Assembly: GCA_000378025.1 (NCBI GenBank)
Contig: KB899087.1
Span: 186,001 to 250,000, forward strand
Direction of reading: 5' to 3'
Length of the DNA stretch: 64,000 bases
Source: Xanthobacteraceae bacterium 501b
GTDB lineage: Bacteria; Pseudomonadota; Alphaproteobacteria; Rhizobiales; Xanthobacteraceae
Made by a program: the position numbers and the translations under genes
The notes under the pieces: generated by a model
Databases searched by the model: none
Seen by the model: the letters and a program-made list of their open reading frames with translations, nothing else
What the model was told of the DNA's origin: nothing
Shown here: one piece after another, positions 19,801 to 62,060 of the stretch
Layout: each line of letters begins with the position of its first letter
Position numbering within the stretch: position 1 is the first letter of the stretch

Positions 19801-19885
19801 GGCGCTCACCCGTTCTTGGCGCTCACCCGTTCTTGGCGCTCACCCGTTCTTGGCGCTCAGCCGTTCTCAGCGCTCACTCTTTCGT
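19801..19885. repeat. 17-bp tandem repeat, about five units
   Basis: Three exact units GGCGCTCACCCGTTCTT (19801-19851) are followed by two diverged units (19852-19885). The last two run into the 3' end of phaR and include its stop codon at 19874-19876. Such short arrays can vary in copy number; here change would affect the phaR tail or its terminator region. Confidence 0.85.
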
Positions 19886-20458
19886 GCCGCCATCGCCCAG
19901 CTTGTCGAGCCGCTTCTGCATGTCGGCGACCTGCCGGCGCAGCTCGTCGAAATCGTCCGGCTGCGGGCTGGCGGCCGGCGCGGGGGCGGCGTCCTCGGCG
20001 CGGGCGCCGGGAAGGAACATCTTGAAGGTGCGGTCGAACATTTCCATGTTCCGGCGCACATGTTCGTCCAATATGCCGAAGCCACCAATGCCGCCAATGC
20101 CCAGCGTCTTGGTGAAGTTCTCGCGCAGGCTGTTCTGTTCCTTGCTGAAATTCTCGATCGTCATGTCGAGATAGCGCGGAACCAGCATCTGCATGCTGTC
20201 GCCGTAGAAACGGATGATCTGGCGAAGGAAGTTGATCGGCAGGAGATTCTGGCCCTTGCCTTCCTGCTCGAAGATGATCTGGGTCAGCACGGAGTGGGTA
20301 ATGTCGTCGGATGACTTCGCATCGTAGACGACGAAGTCTTCGCCGTTCTTGACCATCTGCGCGAGGTCTTCGAGCGTCACATAGGTGCTCGTGCCGGTAT
20401 TGTAGAGGCGGCGGTTCGCGTATTTCTTGATGGTGACGGGTTCGTTGGATTTTGCCAT
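19874..20458 (-). CDS. phaR: Polyhydroxyalkanoate synthesis repressor PhaR
   Basis: DNA-binding repressor that also binds PHB and controls phasin and PHB genes. The 194-residue product has the PHB/PHA accumulation DNA-binding domain (VTIKKYANRRLYNTGTSTYV, residues 8-27) followed by the conserved LTQIIFEQEGKGQNLLPINF and a FYGDSMQMLVPRYLD segment, then a coiled-coil C-terminus. ATG 20458 is chosen; ATG 20488 would add ten residues. It is divergent from phaAB across 267 bp, which suits control of both directions. Confidence 0.96.
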   Translation of the reverse strand: MAKSNEPVTIKKYANRRLYNTGTSTYVTLEDLAQMVKNGEDFVVYDAKSSDDITHSVLTQIIFEQEGKGQNLLPINFLRQIIRFYGDSMQMLVPRYLDMTIENFSKEQNSLRENFTKTLGIGGIGGFGILDEHVRRNMEMFDRTFKMFLPGARAEDAAPAPAASPQPDDFDELRRQVADMQKRLDKLGDGGTKE

Positions 20459-20725
20459 TGTGATCCAGTCGCCTTGATCGTTTCCCATTGAAAACTCTAG
20501 GACGTTTCCCAGCGCCCGGCTACAGGAATTGTGGCGGCTTACGGCCGCCCGCGGGGCGTGATGCGGGGCTGGGTGCGTCCCGCGCTGACGTGACGTCAAG
20601 AAAATCCGCGTGCCATTGACATGGATCACAGGTGGCTACCACGATGCTGTCACACCTGTTCAAGAAGGTGAGGCGCTGGCCATAGGCCGCGCTGCAAAAC
20701 GGGATCGTACCGGAGGACGTCATTC

Positions 20726-21904
<1,179 letters not shown>

Positions 21905-22038
21905 CGCGCTTCCGGCACAGCCGGCAGGAACTGTGACCCATCGCGGCGGCAAGGCGGGCTGACGACCTTGCCGTCATCAAGAATCGACGTACAAACCGTC
22001 GAGAGTTCCCTGGGGAAGGGACGCCAGAGGGGGGATAC

Positions 22039-22764
22039 ATGGCGCGTGTTGCATTGGTCACCGGGGGTACGCGCGGCATCGGCGCGGCCATCTGCAAAGC
22101 CTTGAAGGCGGCCGGCTATTCCGTCGCCGCCAATTATGCCGGCAATGACGCGGCGGCCGCCAAATTCACCGAGGAAACCGGCATCCCCACCTTCAAATGG
22201 GACGTGTCCGACTTCGCGGCGTGCCAGGCGGGCATCGCCGACGTGACGGCGAAACTCGGTCCGGTCGATGTGCTTGTTAACAATGCCGGCATCACCCGCG
22301 ACGGCATGCTGCACAAGATGACGCCTGAGAACTGGCACGCGGTGATCAACACCAACCTGACCTCGGTGTTCAACATGTGCCGCAACGTGATCGAGGGTAT
22401 GCGCGAGCGCAATTACGGCCGCATCGTCAACATCTCGTCGATCAATGGCCAGAAGGGCCAGATGGGCCAGACCAATTATTCCGCCGCCAAGGCCGGCGAG
22501 ATCGGCTTCACCAAGGCGCTGGCGCAGGAAGTCGCCAAGAAGAATGTCACCGTCAACGCCATCTGCCCGGGCTACATCGCCACCGAAATGGTGCTGGCGG
22601 TGCCGAAGGAGGTGCTGGAGAAGAGCATCATTCCGCAGATTCCGGTCGGCCGGCTGGGCGAGGCCGAGGAAATCGCGCGCTGCGTGGTGTTCCTCGCCGA
22701 TGACGCCGCCGGCTTCATCACCGGCTCGACACTCGCTGCCAATGGCGGCCAGTACCTCACCTGA
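22039..22764 (+). CDS. phaB: Acetoacetyl-CoA reductase
   Basis: NADPH-dependent reduction of acetoacetyl-CoA to (R)-3-hydroxybutyryl-CoA. The 241-residue SDR has the cofactor motif TGGTRGIG (residues 8-15), NNAGITRDG, catalytic Ser, Tyr147 and Lys151 in TNYSAAKAG, and the C-terminal LAANGGQYLT. The ribosome-binding site GAGGGGGG is unusually G-rich. It is the second gene of phaAB; the A-to-B order is the typical rhizobial arrangement. Confidence 0.96.
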   Translation: MARVALVTGGTRGIGAAICKALKAAGYSVAANYAGNDAAAAKFTEETGIPTFKWDVSDFAACQAGIADVTAKLGPVDVLVNNAGITRDGMLHKMTPENWHAVINTNLTSVFNMCRNVIEGMRERNYGRIVNISSINGQKGQMGQTNYSAAKAGEIGFTKALAQEVAKKNVTVNAICPGYIATEMVLAVPKEVLEKSIIPQIPVGRLGEAEEIARCVVFLADDAAGFITGSTLAANGGQYLT

Positions 22765-55694: not shown

Positions 55695-56480
55695 TCAGCC
55701 CCGGTTGAGCACGCTCAGCACCTCGTCATGCAGCCGGCGGTCGCCGGACGCGACGACGCGCCCACTGGTGAGATCCTCGCCGCCTTCCCAATTGGTGACG
55801 ATGCCGCCGGCGCCGGTGACGATCGGCGAGAGCGGCAATATGTCGAAATCGTTCAGATTGGTCTCGATGACGAGATCGACATGGCCGGCCGCCAGCATGC
55901 AATAGGCGTAGCAGTCGCCGCCATAGCGCGGCAGGCGCACGCGCTTTTCCACCTGCTCATAAAGCCCGCGGTTGGCTTCTTCCATCAGCAGCGGGCTGGT
56001 GGTCATCATGACAGCCTCGCCGAGGCTGGCGCAATTGCGGACATTGAGCCGCCGGTCGCCCGCCGGGCCGCGATAGCGCGCCTGCGCGCCGTCGCCGGTG
56101 AAGCGCTCGCGGATGAAGGGCTGGTGCATCATGCCGTAGACCGGCTGGCCGTGCCGGCACAGGCCGATCAGCGTTCCCCAGGCCGGCATGCCGCTGATGA
56201 ACGATTTGGTGCCGTCGATCGGGTCGAGCACCCAGACATAGTCGGCATCCATGCCCTCGTCGGGAAATTCCTCGCCGCGCACGCCATGGCTGGGAAAGGT
56301 GCGGCGGATCAGGGTGCGCATCGCCTGCTCGGCGGCGCGGTCGGCGGCGGTGACGGGATCGAACACCGCGCCGCGGCTCTTGTCCTCGACCCCCAGCGCG
56401 GTGCGGAAGAAGGGGAGAATGGCCTGGCCGGACACGGTGGCGAGCTCGTCGACGAAAATCTCGAAGTCCACCGCACCCAT
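55695..56480 (-). CDS. hisN: Histidinol-phosphatase HisN (inositol monophosphatase family)
   Basis: Dephosphorylates histidinol phosphate in histidine synthesis, with Mg2+. The 261-residue product has the IMPase motifs DPVTAADRAAEQAMR, GEEFPDEG, WVLDPIDGTKSFISGMPAWG (metal-binding Asp) and the C-terminal NDFDILPLSPIVTGAGG. The assignment to HisN rather than inositol monophosphatase rests on close likeness to alphaproteobacterial HisN; other his genes are not here. ATG 56480 chosen; 56504 is an alternative. The first sRNA copy starts 270 bp upstream. Confidence 0.85.
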   Translation of the reverse strand: MGAVDFEIFVDELATVSGQAILPFFRTALGVEDKSRGAVFDPVTAADRAAEQAMRTLIRRTFPSHGVRGEEFPDEGMDADYVWVLDPIDGTKSFISGMPAWGTLIGLCRHGQPVYGMMHQPFIRERFTGDGAQARYRGPAGDRRLNVRNCASLGEAVMMTTSPLLMEEANRGLYEQVEKRVRLPRYGGDCYAYCMLAAGHVDLVIETNLNDFDILPLSPIVTGAGGIVTNWEGGEDLTSGRVVASGDRRLHDEVLSVLNRG

Positions 56481-56749
56481 CGGCCTTGTCCCTGTCGCTT
56501 GCACATGCGGCGCCTGTCGCCCGCCGCCTCAGTCCTATCGACAGGCGGCGGGCACGGCAATCGCCCGCGCACGAGGCGGTGCCGTCGCGGCACCCCGCGT
56601 GGCACCGGCGTGGCCTGCACGGCGTGAGGGGCGTCCCTCAGAAATGCCCCGCGCTTAGCGCATGGCTGCCATTCCGGCACGGTCAAGAAATGGGCAATTC
56701 AGCCGTTGCACCCGAGAAGTGAACCTGCCATATTATTGCAGCGCGGTAG

Positions 56750-56839
56750 AGCGATTGGCGTCGCCTTACCGCCGCCCTCCTTGGGCGTTTCCTCCCTAGA
56801 CTTGGGCCGCTCCGGCAACGTGAGCGGCCCCTTTCTTTT
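56750..56839 (+). ncRNA. mmgR/suhB-family small RNA, copy 1
   Basis: About 90 nt. Hairpin 1 is GCGA-TTGGCG-TCGC; hairpin 2 is GCCC-TCCTT-GGGC; then a single-stranded TTTCCTCCCT core (56788-56797); then terminator GGGCCGCT/AGCGGCCC with CTTTCTTTT. This matches the alpha-r8 (mmgR, Rfam suhB) layout, whose conserved core is UUUCCUCCCU. The copy is 270 bp upstream of hisN, divergently placed. Five-prime end is approximate; TATTAT at 56731-56736 could be a -10 element. Confidence 0.78.
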
Positions 56840-57089
56840 CTACAAACCACTGAAATCACAGCATTATTCGCGCGGGCGCTTTTGTGGCGTCCGGCCGCGC
56901 GGCCGTGCGCCACGCCGGAGCGCGTCCGTCTCCCACGCTGCGCGCGGGCCTCGTGCCGATTTTGGCGTCAAGCGCGCTGCACGTTCGATTGTCATCATTT
57001 GAACGCCTGCGACCAATTGCCAGTTTCGTTTCTTTCGGTTGGCGGTTGTCATCCCAGCGTCGCGAGGTTATTGATATTGCGTTGCGGCG

Positions 57090-57183
57090 GCGTGATTGGC
57101 GTCACGCTGCCGCCGCCCTTCTTGGGCGTTTCCTCCCTAGACTTGGGCCGCTTGCGCGCTGCGTAAGCGGCCTCTTTCTTTTT
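57090..57183 (+). ncRNA. mmgR/suhB-family small RNA, copy 2
   Basis: Hairpin 1 is GCGTGA-TTGGCG-TCACGC, where both arms changed together relative to copies 1 and 3. Hairpin 2 is GCCC-TTCTT-GGGC, the core TTTCCTCCCT is at 57129-57138, and the terminator stem GGCCGCTT/AAGCGGCC ends in CTCTTTCTTTTT. Compensatory changes support selection on RNA folding. Five-prime end is approximate. Confidence 0.8.
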
Positions 57184-58063
57184 GGGCCCCGGCCCCGGCG
57201 CCGTCGCGCGGCGCGCCCTCCCGCTTCCCATGCGCGGTGAGAGGAGAGGCCCGTTCCCGCCCGTGCCTTCCCCAGTTCTTCCGCTGCCCTCATGCGTGGC
57301 GTGACCCGGCACCCCGTAGCCGCGCACTTCCAACGACCGAGCCGCCCGACGTTCCGCCTCGCGCGCGCCGTCTGGGTCCCCGGGTCAGGCCGGGATGAGG
57401 GTGGATCTTGCGGAGGCAGGCGATCGACGGGCAAGGCCAATGGGGCTATCGCGGGTCGAGGCCGGGGGAGGGCAGGGCCGGGGCCCGTTGTTGTTCCAGC
57501 GAAGCCCGCGCGGGGTGAGGCGCGACCCTCGTCGGGGCGGGGCGCTGCCCGAAGGCAGAGGTGAGAGGGGAAACCGTGTCCCGCCTACGCTTCCTCAGCT
57601 CGCCTGCCGCCTCATGCCCGGGCTTGACCCGGGCAACCAGAAGGAATCCGCGTCTCAGAGACAGGGTCGCCCCGCCATCCCGCCCGAGATTCCGCCGCGC
57701 TCGCCCGTCTGGGTCCCCGGGTCAAGCCCGGGGATGAGGGGTGCTGGGTGGAACTTGCGGAGTGAGGCGATCGAGGGGCAGGGCAAATGGGGTTGTCGCC
57801 AATCAAGCCCGGCCATTACGGGTGGGACGCATCCCTAAACCGCCGACGGGCCCCCAAAACGGAAACGGGCGCTGGCGCGCCGCGACCCCCCGGTCAGCCC
57901 GCCAACGCCCGCCAGGGCGACCCGCGCTCCTGAAAAAGTACGTCCGTACCGTCATATGCGGCAATAATGCCACACAGAGCCCGTTGCCGTATTTGGTATG
58001 CCAGAAACTGCCGCTGGGTGCCTTGATTATTCCGCAATGCACCTACATCTTGCACTCGTACCC
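57184..58063. other. Gene-free spacer with imperfect direct duplication
   Basis: About 880 bp with no convincing protein. Two segments, 57357-57457 and 57699-57797, are imperfect copies of each other (both include TCTGGGTCCCCGGGTCA, a GGGATGAG, CTTGCGGAG and GGCGATCGA). GC-rich palindromes such as GCCCGGGCTTGACCCGGGC also occur. Short frames here are Arg/Gly-rich and unlike known proteins. Confidence 0.7.
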
Positions 58064-58155
58064 AGCGATTGGCGTCGCTGCGTACAGCCCTCCTTGGGCG
58101 TTTCCTCCCTAGACTTGGGCCGCTTGCGCGCTGCGTAAGCGGCCTCTTTCTTTTG
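58064..58155 (+). ncRNA. mmgR/suhB-family small RNA, copy 3
   Basis: Hairpin 1 is AGCGA-TTGGCG-TCGCT; hairpin 2 is GCCC-TCCTT-GGGC; core TTTCCTCCCT at 58101-58110; terminator stem identical to copy 2 with CTCTTTCTTTT. From the core to the end it is identical to copy 2, whereas hairpins 1 and 2 resemble copy 1. Five-prime end is approximate. Confidence 0.8.
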
Positions 58156-58434
58156 CGCCGGACGAAGACGCCTGCCGTGGCTTTGCCATCTTGCCGGTCG
58201 TCCCGTTGCGGTTCCGTGGGCTCTGAGAGAGCCCGCCAGCCTTTTTCGACTGAAAATTCCCTCCGCCTTTCAGGCAGCTTTGACCGATCCATCGGTAGTG
58301 GAATTTCGCTCCGGAACCGAGCGTGCAGAATTGGTATAGCTCGCATGTTTAAAATGCAAGGCTCTTGCTGAGGTTTTTTACATCACCCCATCAAAAATTT
58401 GCGCACCCCACCTTAAGTCGCTGAAAAGCGTCGA
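58156..58434. other. Spacer with a tRNA-Leu-like fragment
   Basis: About 280 bp with no gene. Bases 58324-58360 resemble a tRNA-Leu(UAA) D-arm and anticodon arm (GAATTGGTATAGC, then GCATGTTTAAAATGC), but no T arm or acceptor follows, so it is not a functional tRNA. The sequence is more AT-rich than its neighbours. Confidence 0.45.
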
Positions 58435-59313
58435 CTATTCGGCGGCAGCGCGCAGCGGGGCGAGCTCCAGATGCGACACCTCGGCCAGCGCCAGCGCCAC
58501 TTCCAGTAGGTCGTTCTGAACGATTTCGAAATTTTCCGAGGGTTGATATGTCGCTTCGCGCATGTAGAGGGCGCGGTTGATTTCGATCTGCACGGCGTGC
58601 ATCCCCGAGGCCGGGTTGCCGTAATGCTCGGTGATGAAGCCGCCGGCATAGGGCTTGTTGCGCACCACGCAATAGCCGCGCCGGCGCAGCTCGGCCTCGA
58701 TCGTATCGGGGATGATCCCGGCGCAGCTCGTGCCGTAACGGTCGCCCAGCACGATGTCGATTCGCGCGTCGCGCTGGCAGCCGGACGGCATCGAGTGGCA
58801 GTCCACCAGTACCGCCACGCCGAAGCTGCGCTGCATCTGCACCATCAACTGGCGCAGCGAGCGATGATAGGGCTTGTAGAGCGATTCGATGCGCGCAATA
58901 GCCTCGTCCACCGGAATGCGGCGGCCATAGATCTCCTGCGCCTCGCCGACGATGCGGGCGATGGTGCCGAGCCCGCCGGCCACCCGCATCGAGCGCGTAT
59001 TGGCATAGGCGGGGAGGCGCCCGTCGAACATGCGCGGGTCGAGCTCATAGGGCTCGCGATTCACGTCGAGATAGCAGCGCGGAAAATGCGCGCGCATGAA
59101 TCCCATGCCGAAGCGCGTCACCTGCGCGAAAAGCTCGTCGACGAAACTGTCCTCGGAGCGGCGCAGCACCGGCAGTTCGAGCCGGGACTGGCTGACGAAG
59201 TCGCGGGGATAGACCACGCCGCTATGGGGCGAATTGAACAGGAACGGGGCGCGTAGCGAGGCCGGCTGGACGATCTCGAAGGCGGGGTCGATCTCGTCGG
59301 CGATGACGGCCAT
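58435..59313 (-). CDS. N-formylglutamate amidohydrolase
   Basis: Zinc amidohydrolase of the FGase family (PF05013), which can complete histidine degradation via N-formylglutamate or cleave related N-formyl amino acids. The 292-residue product has FNSPHSGVVYPRDFV, HFPRCYLDVNREPYELDPRM, the metal/catalytic segment VLVDCHSMPSG and HAVQIEINRALYM. No hut genes lie nearby, so a role in histidine breakdown is not shown by context. ATG 59313 is favoured over 59316 on spacing. The cpdR gene is divergent upstream. Confidence 0.92.
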   Translation of the reverse strand: MAVIADEIDPAFEIVQPASLRAPFLFNSPHSGVVYPRDFVSQSRLELPVLRRSEDSFVDELFAQVTRFGMGFMRAHFPRCYLDVNREPYELDPRMFDGRLPAYANTRSMRVAGGLGTIARIVGEAQEIYGRRIPVDEAIARIESLYKPYHRSLRQLMVQMQRSFGVAVLVDCHSMPSGCQRDARIDIVLGDRYGTSCAGIIPDTIEAELRRRGYCVVRNKPYAGGFITEHYGNPASGMHAVQIEINRALYMREATYQPSENFEIVQNDLLEVALALAEVSHLELAPLRAAAE

Positions 59314-59581
59314 CATTCCTCAATCCGCTTCCAGCCCCGCCGCGCGCGGGGCTTCATCGTGTCTAACATGACGCTCCGCAAGGCGGAATGCGGCGGCGGC
59401 CCGCGCGCGCCGGTTTTTGCGAACACGTCCGCGAGAGGGTGCCCGTGCGGGAAGCCGGTTCATGTTCACGATGTGCTAAGGGGCGCTGGAGTACCCAAGG
59501 AGAACGTACATGCGGCGGGCATGCGCGCGTCGGCCCGTCCGGCGCCGTCCTCGCCGCCTCAAGACAATCAGGATGCCCGGG

Positions 59582-60599: not shown

Positions 60600-62060
60600 A
60601 TGAGCTACCTGAATTGGGCCAGCGCGCGCAGCGGATGCGCGGCTCTGGCCATCGCCGTCGCCCTGGCCTGCGGCCCGGCGAGCCTCCATGGCGCGTTTGC
60701 GGCCGATGCCACCGGCCCCGGCTCGCTGGACAAGACCTTCGGCGCCGGCACGTCGGATGGCACGCCGGATGGCGTCGCCAGCACCTCGCTCAGCGATGGT
60801 GACGACATCGCGAACGGCATTGCCACCACGGCGGACGGCAAGGTCGTCATCGTCGGCAACCGCAACAATGGCAAGAGCAACGACATTGTCGTGCTGCGCT
60901 ATGCCAAGGACGGCACGCTCGATGCCGGCTTCGGCAAGGCCAATGACGGCACGCCGGACGGCGTGGTCAACATCTCGCTCGGCGAGGGCAATGATTTCGC
61001 CACCGACGTCGCGGTGCAGGCCGACGGCAAGATCATCGTGGCCGGCTATCACGAGGAAGGCACCAGCACCAATATCGCCGTGCTGCGTCTCAACACCGAC
61101 GGCACGCTCGACGCCAGCTTCGGCAAGGGCAATGACGGCACGCCGGATGGCGTGGTCAACATCTCGCTCGGCGACGGCAACGACATCGCCGATGCCGTGG
61201 CGCTGACCGCCGACGGCAAGATCGTCATCGCCGGCACCACCACCGCCAAGGATGGCAGCACCAACATCGTCATCGGCCGCCTCAATGCCGACGGCACCGC
61301 CGACGCCACGTTCGGCGTCGACGGCAGCGACGGCACGCCTGACGGTTTCACCGCCGTCTCGCTGGGCGATGGCAATGATGTCGCCGAAGACATCGCGGTC
61401 GCCAAGGACGGCACGGTCGTCGTCGCCGGCACCCATGGGCCGAAGGGCAATTCCAACATCGCCGTGCTGCGCTTCACCGCCAATGGCACGCTGGACCCGA
61501 GCTTCGGCAAATCCGCTGACGGCACGCCGGATGGCGTCGCCAGCTTCTCGCTGGGCGAAGGCTCGGACGAGGCGACCGCGCTGGCGCTGACCGCCGATGG
61601 CAAGATCGTCGTCGCCGGCGATTCCATCGCCAAGGACGGCAGCGCCAATGTCGTCATCGCCCGGCTGAACGCCGACGGCTCGCTCGACGAGGCCTTCGGC
61701 GTCGCCGACGATGGCACGCCGAACGGCTTTGTCGCCACCTCGCTCGGCGCCGGCAACGACTATGCGACCGACGTGGTGATGGACAAGAACGGCAACATCG
61801 TCGTCGCCGGCTACCACCAGGAAGGCAACAGCACCAACATCGCGGTGCTGCGCTACACCCCCAAGGGCGAACTGGACGAGGCCTTCGGCACCGCCAATGA
61901 CGGCACCCCGAACGGCATCGTCAATCTCTCGCTCGGCGAGGGCGACGACACCGCCAGCGGCGTGGCGATGCAGGGCGACACGATGATCGTCGTCGGCGGC
62001 GTCACCACCGCCAAGGATGGCAGCAAGAACATCGCCGTCATCCGCCTGCTCGGCCAGTAA
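60600..62060 (+). CDS. Secreted protein made of seven delta-60 repeats
   Basis: A 486-residue protein with a signal peptide (CAALAIAVALACGPASLHGAFA, cleaved before DATGPG). The whole mature chain is seven tandem delta-60 repeats (PF17164/DUF5122) of about 63 residues, each with DGTPDG or DGTPNG, SLG-G-D-A, DGK--VAG, N(I/V)-V-R and LD--FG. No other domain follows. Seven units would suit a closed beta-propeller. Function unknown; the repeats often bind calcium or sugars in other proteins. GGAGGAG precedes ATG 60600. Confidence 0.9.
   Translation: MSYLNWASARSGCAALAIAVALACGPASLHGAFAADATGPGSLDKTFGAGTSDGTPDGVASTSLSDGDDIANGIATTADGKVVIVGNRNNGKSNDIVVLRYAKDGTLDAGFGKANDGTPDGVVNISLGEGNDFATDVAVQADGKIIVAGYHEEGTSTNIAVLRLNTDGTLDASFGKGNDGTPDGVVNISLGDGNDIADAVALTADGKIVIAGTTTAKDGSTNIVIGRLNADGTADATFGVDGSDGTPDGFTAVSLGDGNDVAEDIAVAKDGTVVVAGTHGPKGNSNIAVLRFTANGTLDPSFGKSADGTPDGVASFSLGEGSDEATALALTADGKIVVAGDSIAKDGSANVVIARLNADGSLDEAFGVADDGTPNGFVATSLGAGNDYATDVVMDKNGNIVVAGYHQEGNSTNIAVLRYTPKGELDEAFGTANDGTPNGIVNLSLGEGDDTASGVAMQGDTMIVVGGVTTAKDGSKNIAVIRLLGQ

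Follow-up and report, generated by a model that had tools for sequence, protein, structure and literature searches.

An array of three tandem small RNAs (sRNAs) of the alpha-r8 (mmgR/suhB) family lies in the window, the 64,000-nt stretch of the Xanthobacteraceae bacterium 501b genome that was analyzed, and its arrangement is fixed in the genus Ancylobacter. With a probability of about 0.75, the three sRNAs have promoters and terminators of their own, carry one common seed, are subject to a PhaR-type brake and respond to three separate inputs.

Identification of the sRNA array

The RF00519 covariance model (the Rfam mmgR/suhB model, alpha-r8; gathering score 41 bits) matched the plus strand at 56767-56845 (65.0 bits), 57108-57187 (64.4 bits) and 58080-58159 (60.6 bits), as expected from the original prediction of three mmgR/suhB-type copies. 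No other match exceeds the cut-off in the 5.1-Mb genome (G000), where 21 matches were obtained at E <= 1; the window itself corresponds to G000:C1:186001-250000. The genes flanking the array encode an inositol-monophosphatase-family protein and an N-formylglutamate amidohydrolase (FGase):

55695..56504, minus strand: inositol-monophosphatase-family gene (PF00459, 5.1e-51)
56742..56840, plus strand: sRNA copy 1 (alpha-r8; RF00519, fold, SL1 covariation; predicted ends), with hairpin SL1 at 56743-56772, SL2, the seed TTTCCTCCCT at 56788-56797 and the terminator
57083..57181, plus strand: sRNA copy 2 (alpha-r8; RF00519, fold, terminator scan; predicted ends), with SL1 at 57084-57113, SL2, the seed at 57129-57138 and the terminator at 57145-57173
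58055..58153, plus strand: sRNA copy 3 (alpha-r8; RF00519, fold, terminator scan; predicted ends), with SL1 at 58058-58085, SL2, the seed at 58101-58110 and the terminator at 58117-58145
58435..59316, minus strand: FGase gene (PF05013, 4.8e-71)

The 10-nt core UUUCCUCCCU is present three times in each of the 30 Ancylobacter stretches and is unpaired, downstream of a weak hairpin, in the predicted folds of the three window copies. The identical block said to be shared by the copies was found (starting at 56780, 57121 and 58093), with a length of 32 bases in place of the 31 first given. Of the Rho-independent terminators, likewise anticipated, the terminator scan listed those of copies 2 and 3; the copy 1 terminator, missing from the scan list, is paired in both the Rfam alignment and the fold. 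The inositol-monophosphatase neighbor to which the prediction had pointed is indeed present, and so is the FGase gene, which is the family's neighbor in the available text of PMC12559287. The covariance model, the core, the terminators and the adjacency to FGase thus support, at the level of sequence, the proposed assignment of the three copies to alpha-r8. None of seven open frames tested in the array stretch gave a Pfam domain at E <= 0.01, in agreement with its description as gene-free; a protein-coding reading was discarded on these grounds and on the compensatory changes described below, which fit an RNA.

The spacer between copies 2 and 3 contains duplicated blocks (27 and 67 nt) that recur at a distance of about 340 bases within 57368-57812, and an inverted pair of 89% identity (57610-57644/57705-57739). 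Elsewhere in the window, a match to RF01793 (ffh sRNA; 61.5 bits) was seen at 590-641 on the plus strand, and a 486-residue repeat protein of DUF5122 beta-propeller type is encoded at 60600-62060 (plus strand), adjoining a tRNA-Val gene.

A conserved 5' hairpin outside the Rfam model

The Rfam model begins just ahead of the second hairpin, so that SL1, a stem of about 12 pairs that precedes it, falls outside. The hairpin with a TTGGCG loop that had been noticed from the sequence is real in the folds, where it constitutes the inner portion of this longer stem. The loop and its closing bases (ATTGGCGT) are identical in 90 of 90 copies, and the stem varies. Among 57 distinct hairpins taken from the 90 copies of 30 genomes, standard pairs occupy 585 of 684 cells (12 pairs); when the 3' arms were shuffled 2000 times, always within one array position, the count was 523 +/- 7.7 and never exceeded 555. 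Both bases depart from the commonest pair in 144 cells (13 pairs), compared with 99 in the shuffles (maximum 124). The compensatory changes of the original prediction therefore go beyond the shuffled expectation, which supports SL1 as a part of the RNA.

Inspection by eye showed a hairpin at the same place in other genera too, where the loop is mostly a different one. UUGGCG was encountered again in Kaistia adipata, in genome G015 and, among the two-copy relatives, in the second copy of 14 of 14. Fifteen of 22 other relatives were inspected for the loop, which is full in G015 and of a shorter form in G058; three of the seven uninspected ones have genus-mates (G090, G126) with the shorter loop. 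A shortened SL1 loop, GCGATGGCGTCGC, was noted in relatives (loci L411, L412 and L400) and may represent a step between the usual loop and UUGGCG.

Distribution of the triple

Three same-strand copies in a row were found in all 30 Ancylobacter genomes searched, so the triple is not an oddity of a single genome. Copies 1 and 2 are separated by 324-383 bases and copies 2 and 3 by 342-2354 bases, the latter spacing being the most variable across the genus. In the family sample, counted with strict filters (E <= 1e-5), an RF00519 match was obtained in 147 of 149 genomes, most of which have one or two. Among the matches listed, two copies lie within 1 kb in at least 17 genomes outside Ancylobacter, and a row of three was absent from the 14 genomes outside the genus that have three or more matches. 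The two-copy arrays of Xanthobacteraceae (e.g. Xanthobacter agilis, L127) resemble the Ancylobacter triple in being tandem, with the copies a few hundred bases apart, and in the UUGGCG-loop hairpin of the second copy, but differ in having two copies, the first of them without this loop.

The available text of PMC12559287 describes one alpha-r8 copy beside FGase in most species, in agreement with the earlier statement that most genomes carry one, and several copies, some of them adjacent, in many genera. Since multiple and sometimes adjacent copies were already known, the genus-fixed triple is a variant arrangement of a known RNA family and not a new kind. The literature searched, in which Lagares et al. 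2016 on the family distribution figured as a citation, contained no earlier description of the Ancylobacter triple.

Extra dispersed RF00519 copies (L097, L098, L099 and L101) were observed in three genomes: G163 has two, whose loop is UUGGCG or close to it; G167 has one with the UUGGCG loop; and G157 has one, on a second contig, whose 5' part differs. Weaker dispersed matches with variant cores (L100 and L105, 38.9-39.3 bits) lie in G163 and G155.

Promoter regions and evolution of the copies

Upstream of each copy, alignment of the 30 genomes revealed a putative sigma-70-like promoter and further conserved blocks:

56660..56677, plus strand: conserved upstream block of copy 1, GCATGGCTGCCATTCCGG (alignment of 30 genomes)
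56706..56734, plus strand: putative copy 1 promoter, TTGCAC (56706-56711), 17 nt, CATATT (56729-56734)
57024..57040, plus strand: T-rich repeat block upstream of copy 2, TTTCGTTTCTTTCGGTT (alignment)
57046..57074, plus strand: putative copy 2 promoter, TTGTCA (57046-57051), 17 nt, TATTGA (57069-57074)
57957..57974, plus strand: palindrome upstream of copy 3, TGCGGCAATAATGCCACA (alignment pattern)
57992..58007, plus strand: inverted repeat upstream of copy 3, TTTGGTATGCCAGAAA (TGGTATGCCA in 25 of 30 genomes)
58023..58051, plus strand: putative copy 3 promoter, TTGATT (58023-58028), 17 nt, CATCTT (58046-58051)

The promoter patterns were written after viewing the alignments, and a simple sigma-70 consensus scan of the stretch found no promoter. 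The copy 1 pattern, TTGNNN-17-CAYATT, is present in 30 of 30 genomes; a looser pattern, always with a 17-nt spacer, describes copy 2 in 27 of 30; and at copy 3 both hexamers and the spacer length are identical in all 30. The conserved upstream element of copy 1 is a block of the GCATGGCTGC type, and the T-rich block of copy 2 appears as TTTCGTTTCTTTC in 22 of 30 genomes. The copy 3 palindrome TGCGGCAATAATGCCACA presumably resembles a CRP-type site; a search for the regulators of the upstream blocks of copies 1-3 gave no safe match.

These regions are position-specific. For the 96 nt upstream, the nearest neighbor in another genome is the same array position for 90 of 90 copies, with a mean alignment score of 42.5 at the same position vs 6.6 between paralogues within a genome. 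For the segment from SL2 through the seed to the terminator, the corresponding scores are 54.8 (same position), 53.7 (within genome) and 50.9 (different position and genome), and 75.5 of 90 copies have their nearest neighbor at the same position, the value for SL1 being 87.7 of 90. Much of the likeness of the SL2-seed-terminator segment is constraint on the seed. Identical terminator loops within a genome are more frequent than in 5000 genome shuffles, both for copies 2 and 3 (9 of 30 genomes, 1.8 expected, reached by 0 shuffles) and for copies 1 and 3 (5 of 30, 0.6 expected, reached by 0), and for copies 1 and 2 four genomes of 30 were counted vs 1.8 expected (reached in 124 shuffles). In G155 and G166 a loop type absent from the other 28 genomes is common to all three copies, that of copy 2 being two bases different. 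These loops fit local gene conversion in some lineages, sparing the promoters, with the kinship of the genomes left uncorrected in the shuffles.

PhaR-type sites in the three promoters

In Sinorhizobium meliloti the palindrome recognized by the regulator PhaR (AniA), which is sequestered by polyhydroxybutyrate (PHB), has YGCRNYGCR as its core, and gel shifts showed binding of PhaR to the mmgR promoter (PMC12542648, available text). This core occurs in 84 of 90 Ancylobacter promoter windows, a motif sought once the promoters had been seen and a count that is non-independent because the 30 genomes are related. By position it is found at copies 1, 2 and 3 in 26, 30 and 28 of 30 windows, with shuffle expectations of 2.7, 2.7 and 2.1, and in downstream control windows in 0 of 4, 2 of 97 and 10 of 120. 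The six windows lacking it belong to copy 1 of G084, G158, G161 and G170 and to copy 3 of G149 and G153. Outside the genus it was present in 127 of 143 distinct copies, chosen by best score or exact match and thus biased toward close kin, vs 5 of 141 control windows. The sites of the array and the PHB genes of the window are as follows:

19874..20629, minus strand: phaR/aniA gene (PF07879, 3.6e-30; PF05233, 7.2e-16); longest frame, true start probably further in
20726..21904, plus strand: phaA-type thiolase gene (PF00108, PF02803), named from its place beside phaR/phaB
22039..22764, plus strand: putative phaB-type reductase gene (PF13561), candidate target
56737..56745, plus strand: PhaR-type palindrome TGCAGCGCG (YGCRNYGCR), start of copy 1
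57078..57086, plus strand: PhaR-type palindrome TGCGTTGCG (YGCRNYGCR), start of copy 2
58033..58041, plus strand: PhaR-type palindrome CGCAATGCA (YGCRNYGCR), between the -35 and -10 of copy 3

At copy 1 the palindrome adjoins the expected transcript start, as it does in 25 of the 30 copy 2 promoters; in the remaining five it is placed further up. As the copy 1 site and most copy 2 sites extend into the beginning of SL1, their conservation may partly reflect the RNA stem. Of the three phasin genes in the source genome, two have the same core upstream, and it is also present in the phaR-phaA gap. The link to PHB storage, first drawn by analogy with Sinorhizobium, is now supported by these operator-like promoter sequences.

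Candidate targets

The seed is an anti-Shine-Dalgarno sequence, and according to the available text of PMC12559287 it acts directly on mRNAs to repress them in Caulobacter. The strongest seed duplex among 34 ORF starts of the window was that of one leader, which also contains ACGCCA, complementary to the SL1 loop:

21979..22038, plus strand: phaB leader

Its seed duplex reaches -22.9 kcal/mol, the mean of the 34 window ORFs being -15.8 (sd 2.5). The phasin genes, expected by analogy to be direct seed targets, do not stand out as such, their leaders (-14.2, -11.6 and -18.1) pairing with the seed no better than this background. Averaged over the phaB leaders of 29 Ancylobacter genomes, the duplex is -21.7 (mean z -1.7 vs mononucleotide shuffles), and phaA starts, where read, give -16.1. 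The phaB leaders of relatives pair similarly (mean -20.9 in 13 two-copy relatives and -19.5 in 22 others), and hence the seed alone does not mark out Ancylobacter. The gene is on the same contig as the array in 30 of 30 genomes, some 33-42 kb away by the listed coordinates.

Within the 60 bases before phaB, a complement of the SL1 loop, every time ACGCCA, is present in 18 of 30 Ancylobacter genomes (29 leaders plus L347, which has none). Of 14 two-copy relatives with the loop (13 leaders read by script and L379 by eye), 7 have a complement, six times as GCCAAT; among the other relatives the count is 1 of 22 (22 of 23 leaders read; L360, at a contig end, left out). As controls, shuffles predict 1.1 of 29, and complements were seen at 2 of the 34 ORFs of the window (phaB being one of the two) and at 4 of 30 seed-complement loci. 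On the other side, G015 has the full loop without a complement, and the relatives with the shorter loop GATGGCGTC likewise have none; the complements were found post hoc and perhaps reflect two or three independent events. As a target of the seed and the SL1 loop, phaB is thus a lead suggested by complementarity. The further proposal, that the UUGGCG loop would be a second antisense site gripping the phaB leader together with the seed, in a PhaR-run, PHB-sensing feedback with three inputs, appears doubtful, and the survey of the loop in the sRNA genes somewhat lowered odds that were already small.

In many Ancylobacter phaB leaders (window 21979-22038; L323-L352) a small GTTCC..GGAAC hairpin was seen by eye directly before the ribosome-binding site; its arms co-vary by eye, and it may act as a regulatory leader in its own right.

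Perfect seed complements beside start codons number 0-7 per genome and 76 in total in the 30 genomes, vs 4 for the reversed pattern. The 30 loci listed include 28 with a frame of at least 60 residues, nine of which encode solute-binding proteins (Pfam); 30 loci of a control Shine-Dalgarno pattern include 15 such frames and one solute-binding protein, a contrast built on few, partly orthologous genes and with half of the control loci devoid of such a frame. The genes differ between species, as only four protein pairs encoded at these loci are related, and the sole start-adjacent perfect 10-nt complement of the source genome belongs to a HIT-domain gene (L235/L257, G000:C1:1662408).

Proposed working and alternative explanations

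We propose that each copy would be a separate transcription unit, with a sigma-70-type promoter in front and a terminator at the end. The same single-stranded anti-Shine-Dalgarno seed UUUCCUCCCU would be exposed in every copy; as the seed is common to the three, they would act in trans on overlapping mRNA targets and repress them through occlusion of the ribosome-binding site, presumably with the help of Hfq, which is encoded in the source genome. Given the PhaR-type operator in each core promoter, free PhaR would hold off all three, and PHB granules, by binding PhaR, would release them. The differing upstream sites would then allow three different signals to raise the same output.

Simple gene dosage, with redundant copies driven by PhaR release alone and upstream blocks that set strength only, could account for the shared seed and the closely similar 3' halves, for the excess of identical terminators within genomes over shuffles and for the PhaR-type motif common to the three positions. 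This explanation is rather unlikely, because the promoter regions are conserved by position yet mutually unlike, with different upstream blocks, and because the Caulobacter siblings show distinct expression patterns (PMC12559287, available text). It is much harder still to believe that copy 2 alone matters and that copies 1 and 3 are drifting duplicates: these two copies retain the seed, the hairpin loop and the promoter pattern in 30 of 30 genomes, and the copy 3 hexamers are unchanged in all 30. What speaks for copy 2 is a TTGTGC-NN-YGCAC dyad in some of its promoters (e.g. G149, G151, G153 and G154), which is also seen in single-copy relatives, the Bradyrhizobium promoters looking alike by eye.

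Least probable of all is that the copies are AbcR (alpha-r15)-type RNAs, a family which also comprises anti-Shine-Dalgarno RNAs, tandem in S. meliloti and partly RF00519-like (PMC7143759, available text). Scores of 60-65 bits to RF00519, the full alpha-r8 core and the linkage to FGase argue against it, as do the neighbors of the array, which are the FGase and inositol-monophosphatase genes and not lsrB, and the folds, which contain one unpaired CU-rich anti-Shine-Dalgarno stretch per window copy instead of two. Moreover, a weaker, core-less candidate exists elsewhere, near an apparent LysR-family gene. This sequence (G000:C1:593753-593839; L004, L102) is RF00519-like at 38.7 bits and lies about 0.8 kb from that gene, which was assigned to the LysR family by eye, with a similar sequence in G103 (L104); in view of the lsrB linkage of the family (PMC7143759, available text), it may be the AbcR/alpha-r15 RNA of the source genome.

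Comparison with known systems

S. meliloti MmgR, placed in PHB control by the available texts of PMC12542648, PMC8401924 and PMC7143759, resembles the array in its seed, its terminator, its match to the covariance model and the PhaR-type site of its promoter (PMC12542648). It is a single copy, whereas Ancylobacter has three with three different promoters. The array RNAs also have a 5' hairpin with an invariant UUGGCG loop, a feature described here from the Ancylobacter side. SisA-D of Caulobacter crescentus, which are accompanied by the sponge CrfA, are likewise alpha-r8 siblings that have one 10-nt seed in common and promoters unrelated to one another; they are dispersed, with one beside FGase, whereas the Ancylobacter copies are all in a row beside it (PMC12559287, available text). 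The AbcR1/AbcR2 (alpha-r15) pair shares with the array the tandem organization of sibling anti-Shine-Dalgarno RNAs (PMC7143759, available text), but belongs to another family and has other neighbors.

Biological significance

For the question of why bacteria keep several near-identical sRNAs, Ancylobacter offers a natural series, in which a single seed is combined with three promoters in 30 of 30 genomes and relatives with one or two copies can be compared. The PhaR-type promoter sites widen beyond Sinorhizobium the case for alpha-r8 sRNAs as members of the PHB-sensing PhaR regulon, a link that bears on bioplastic production.
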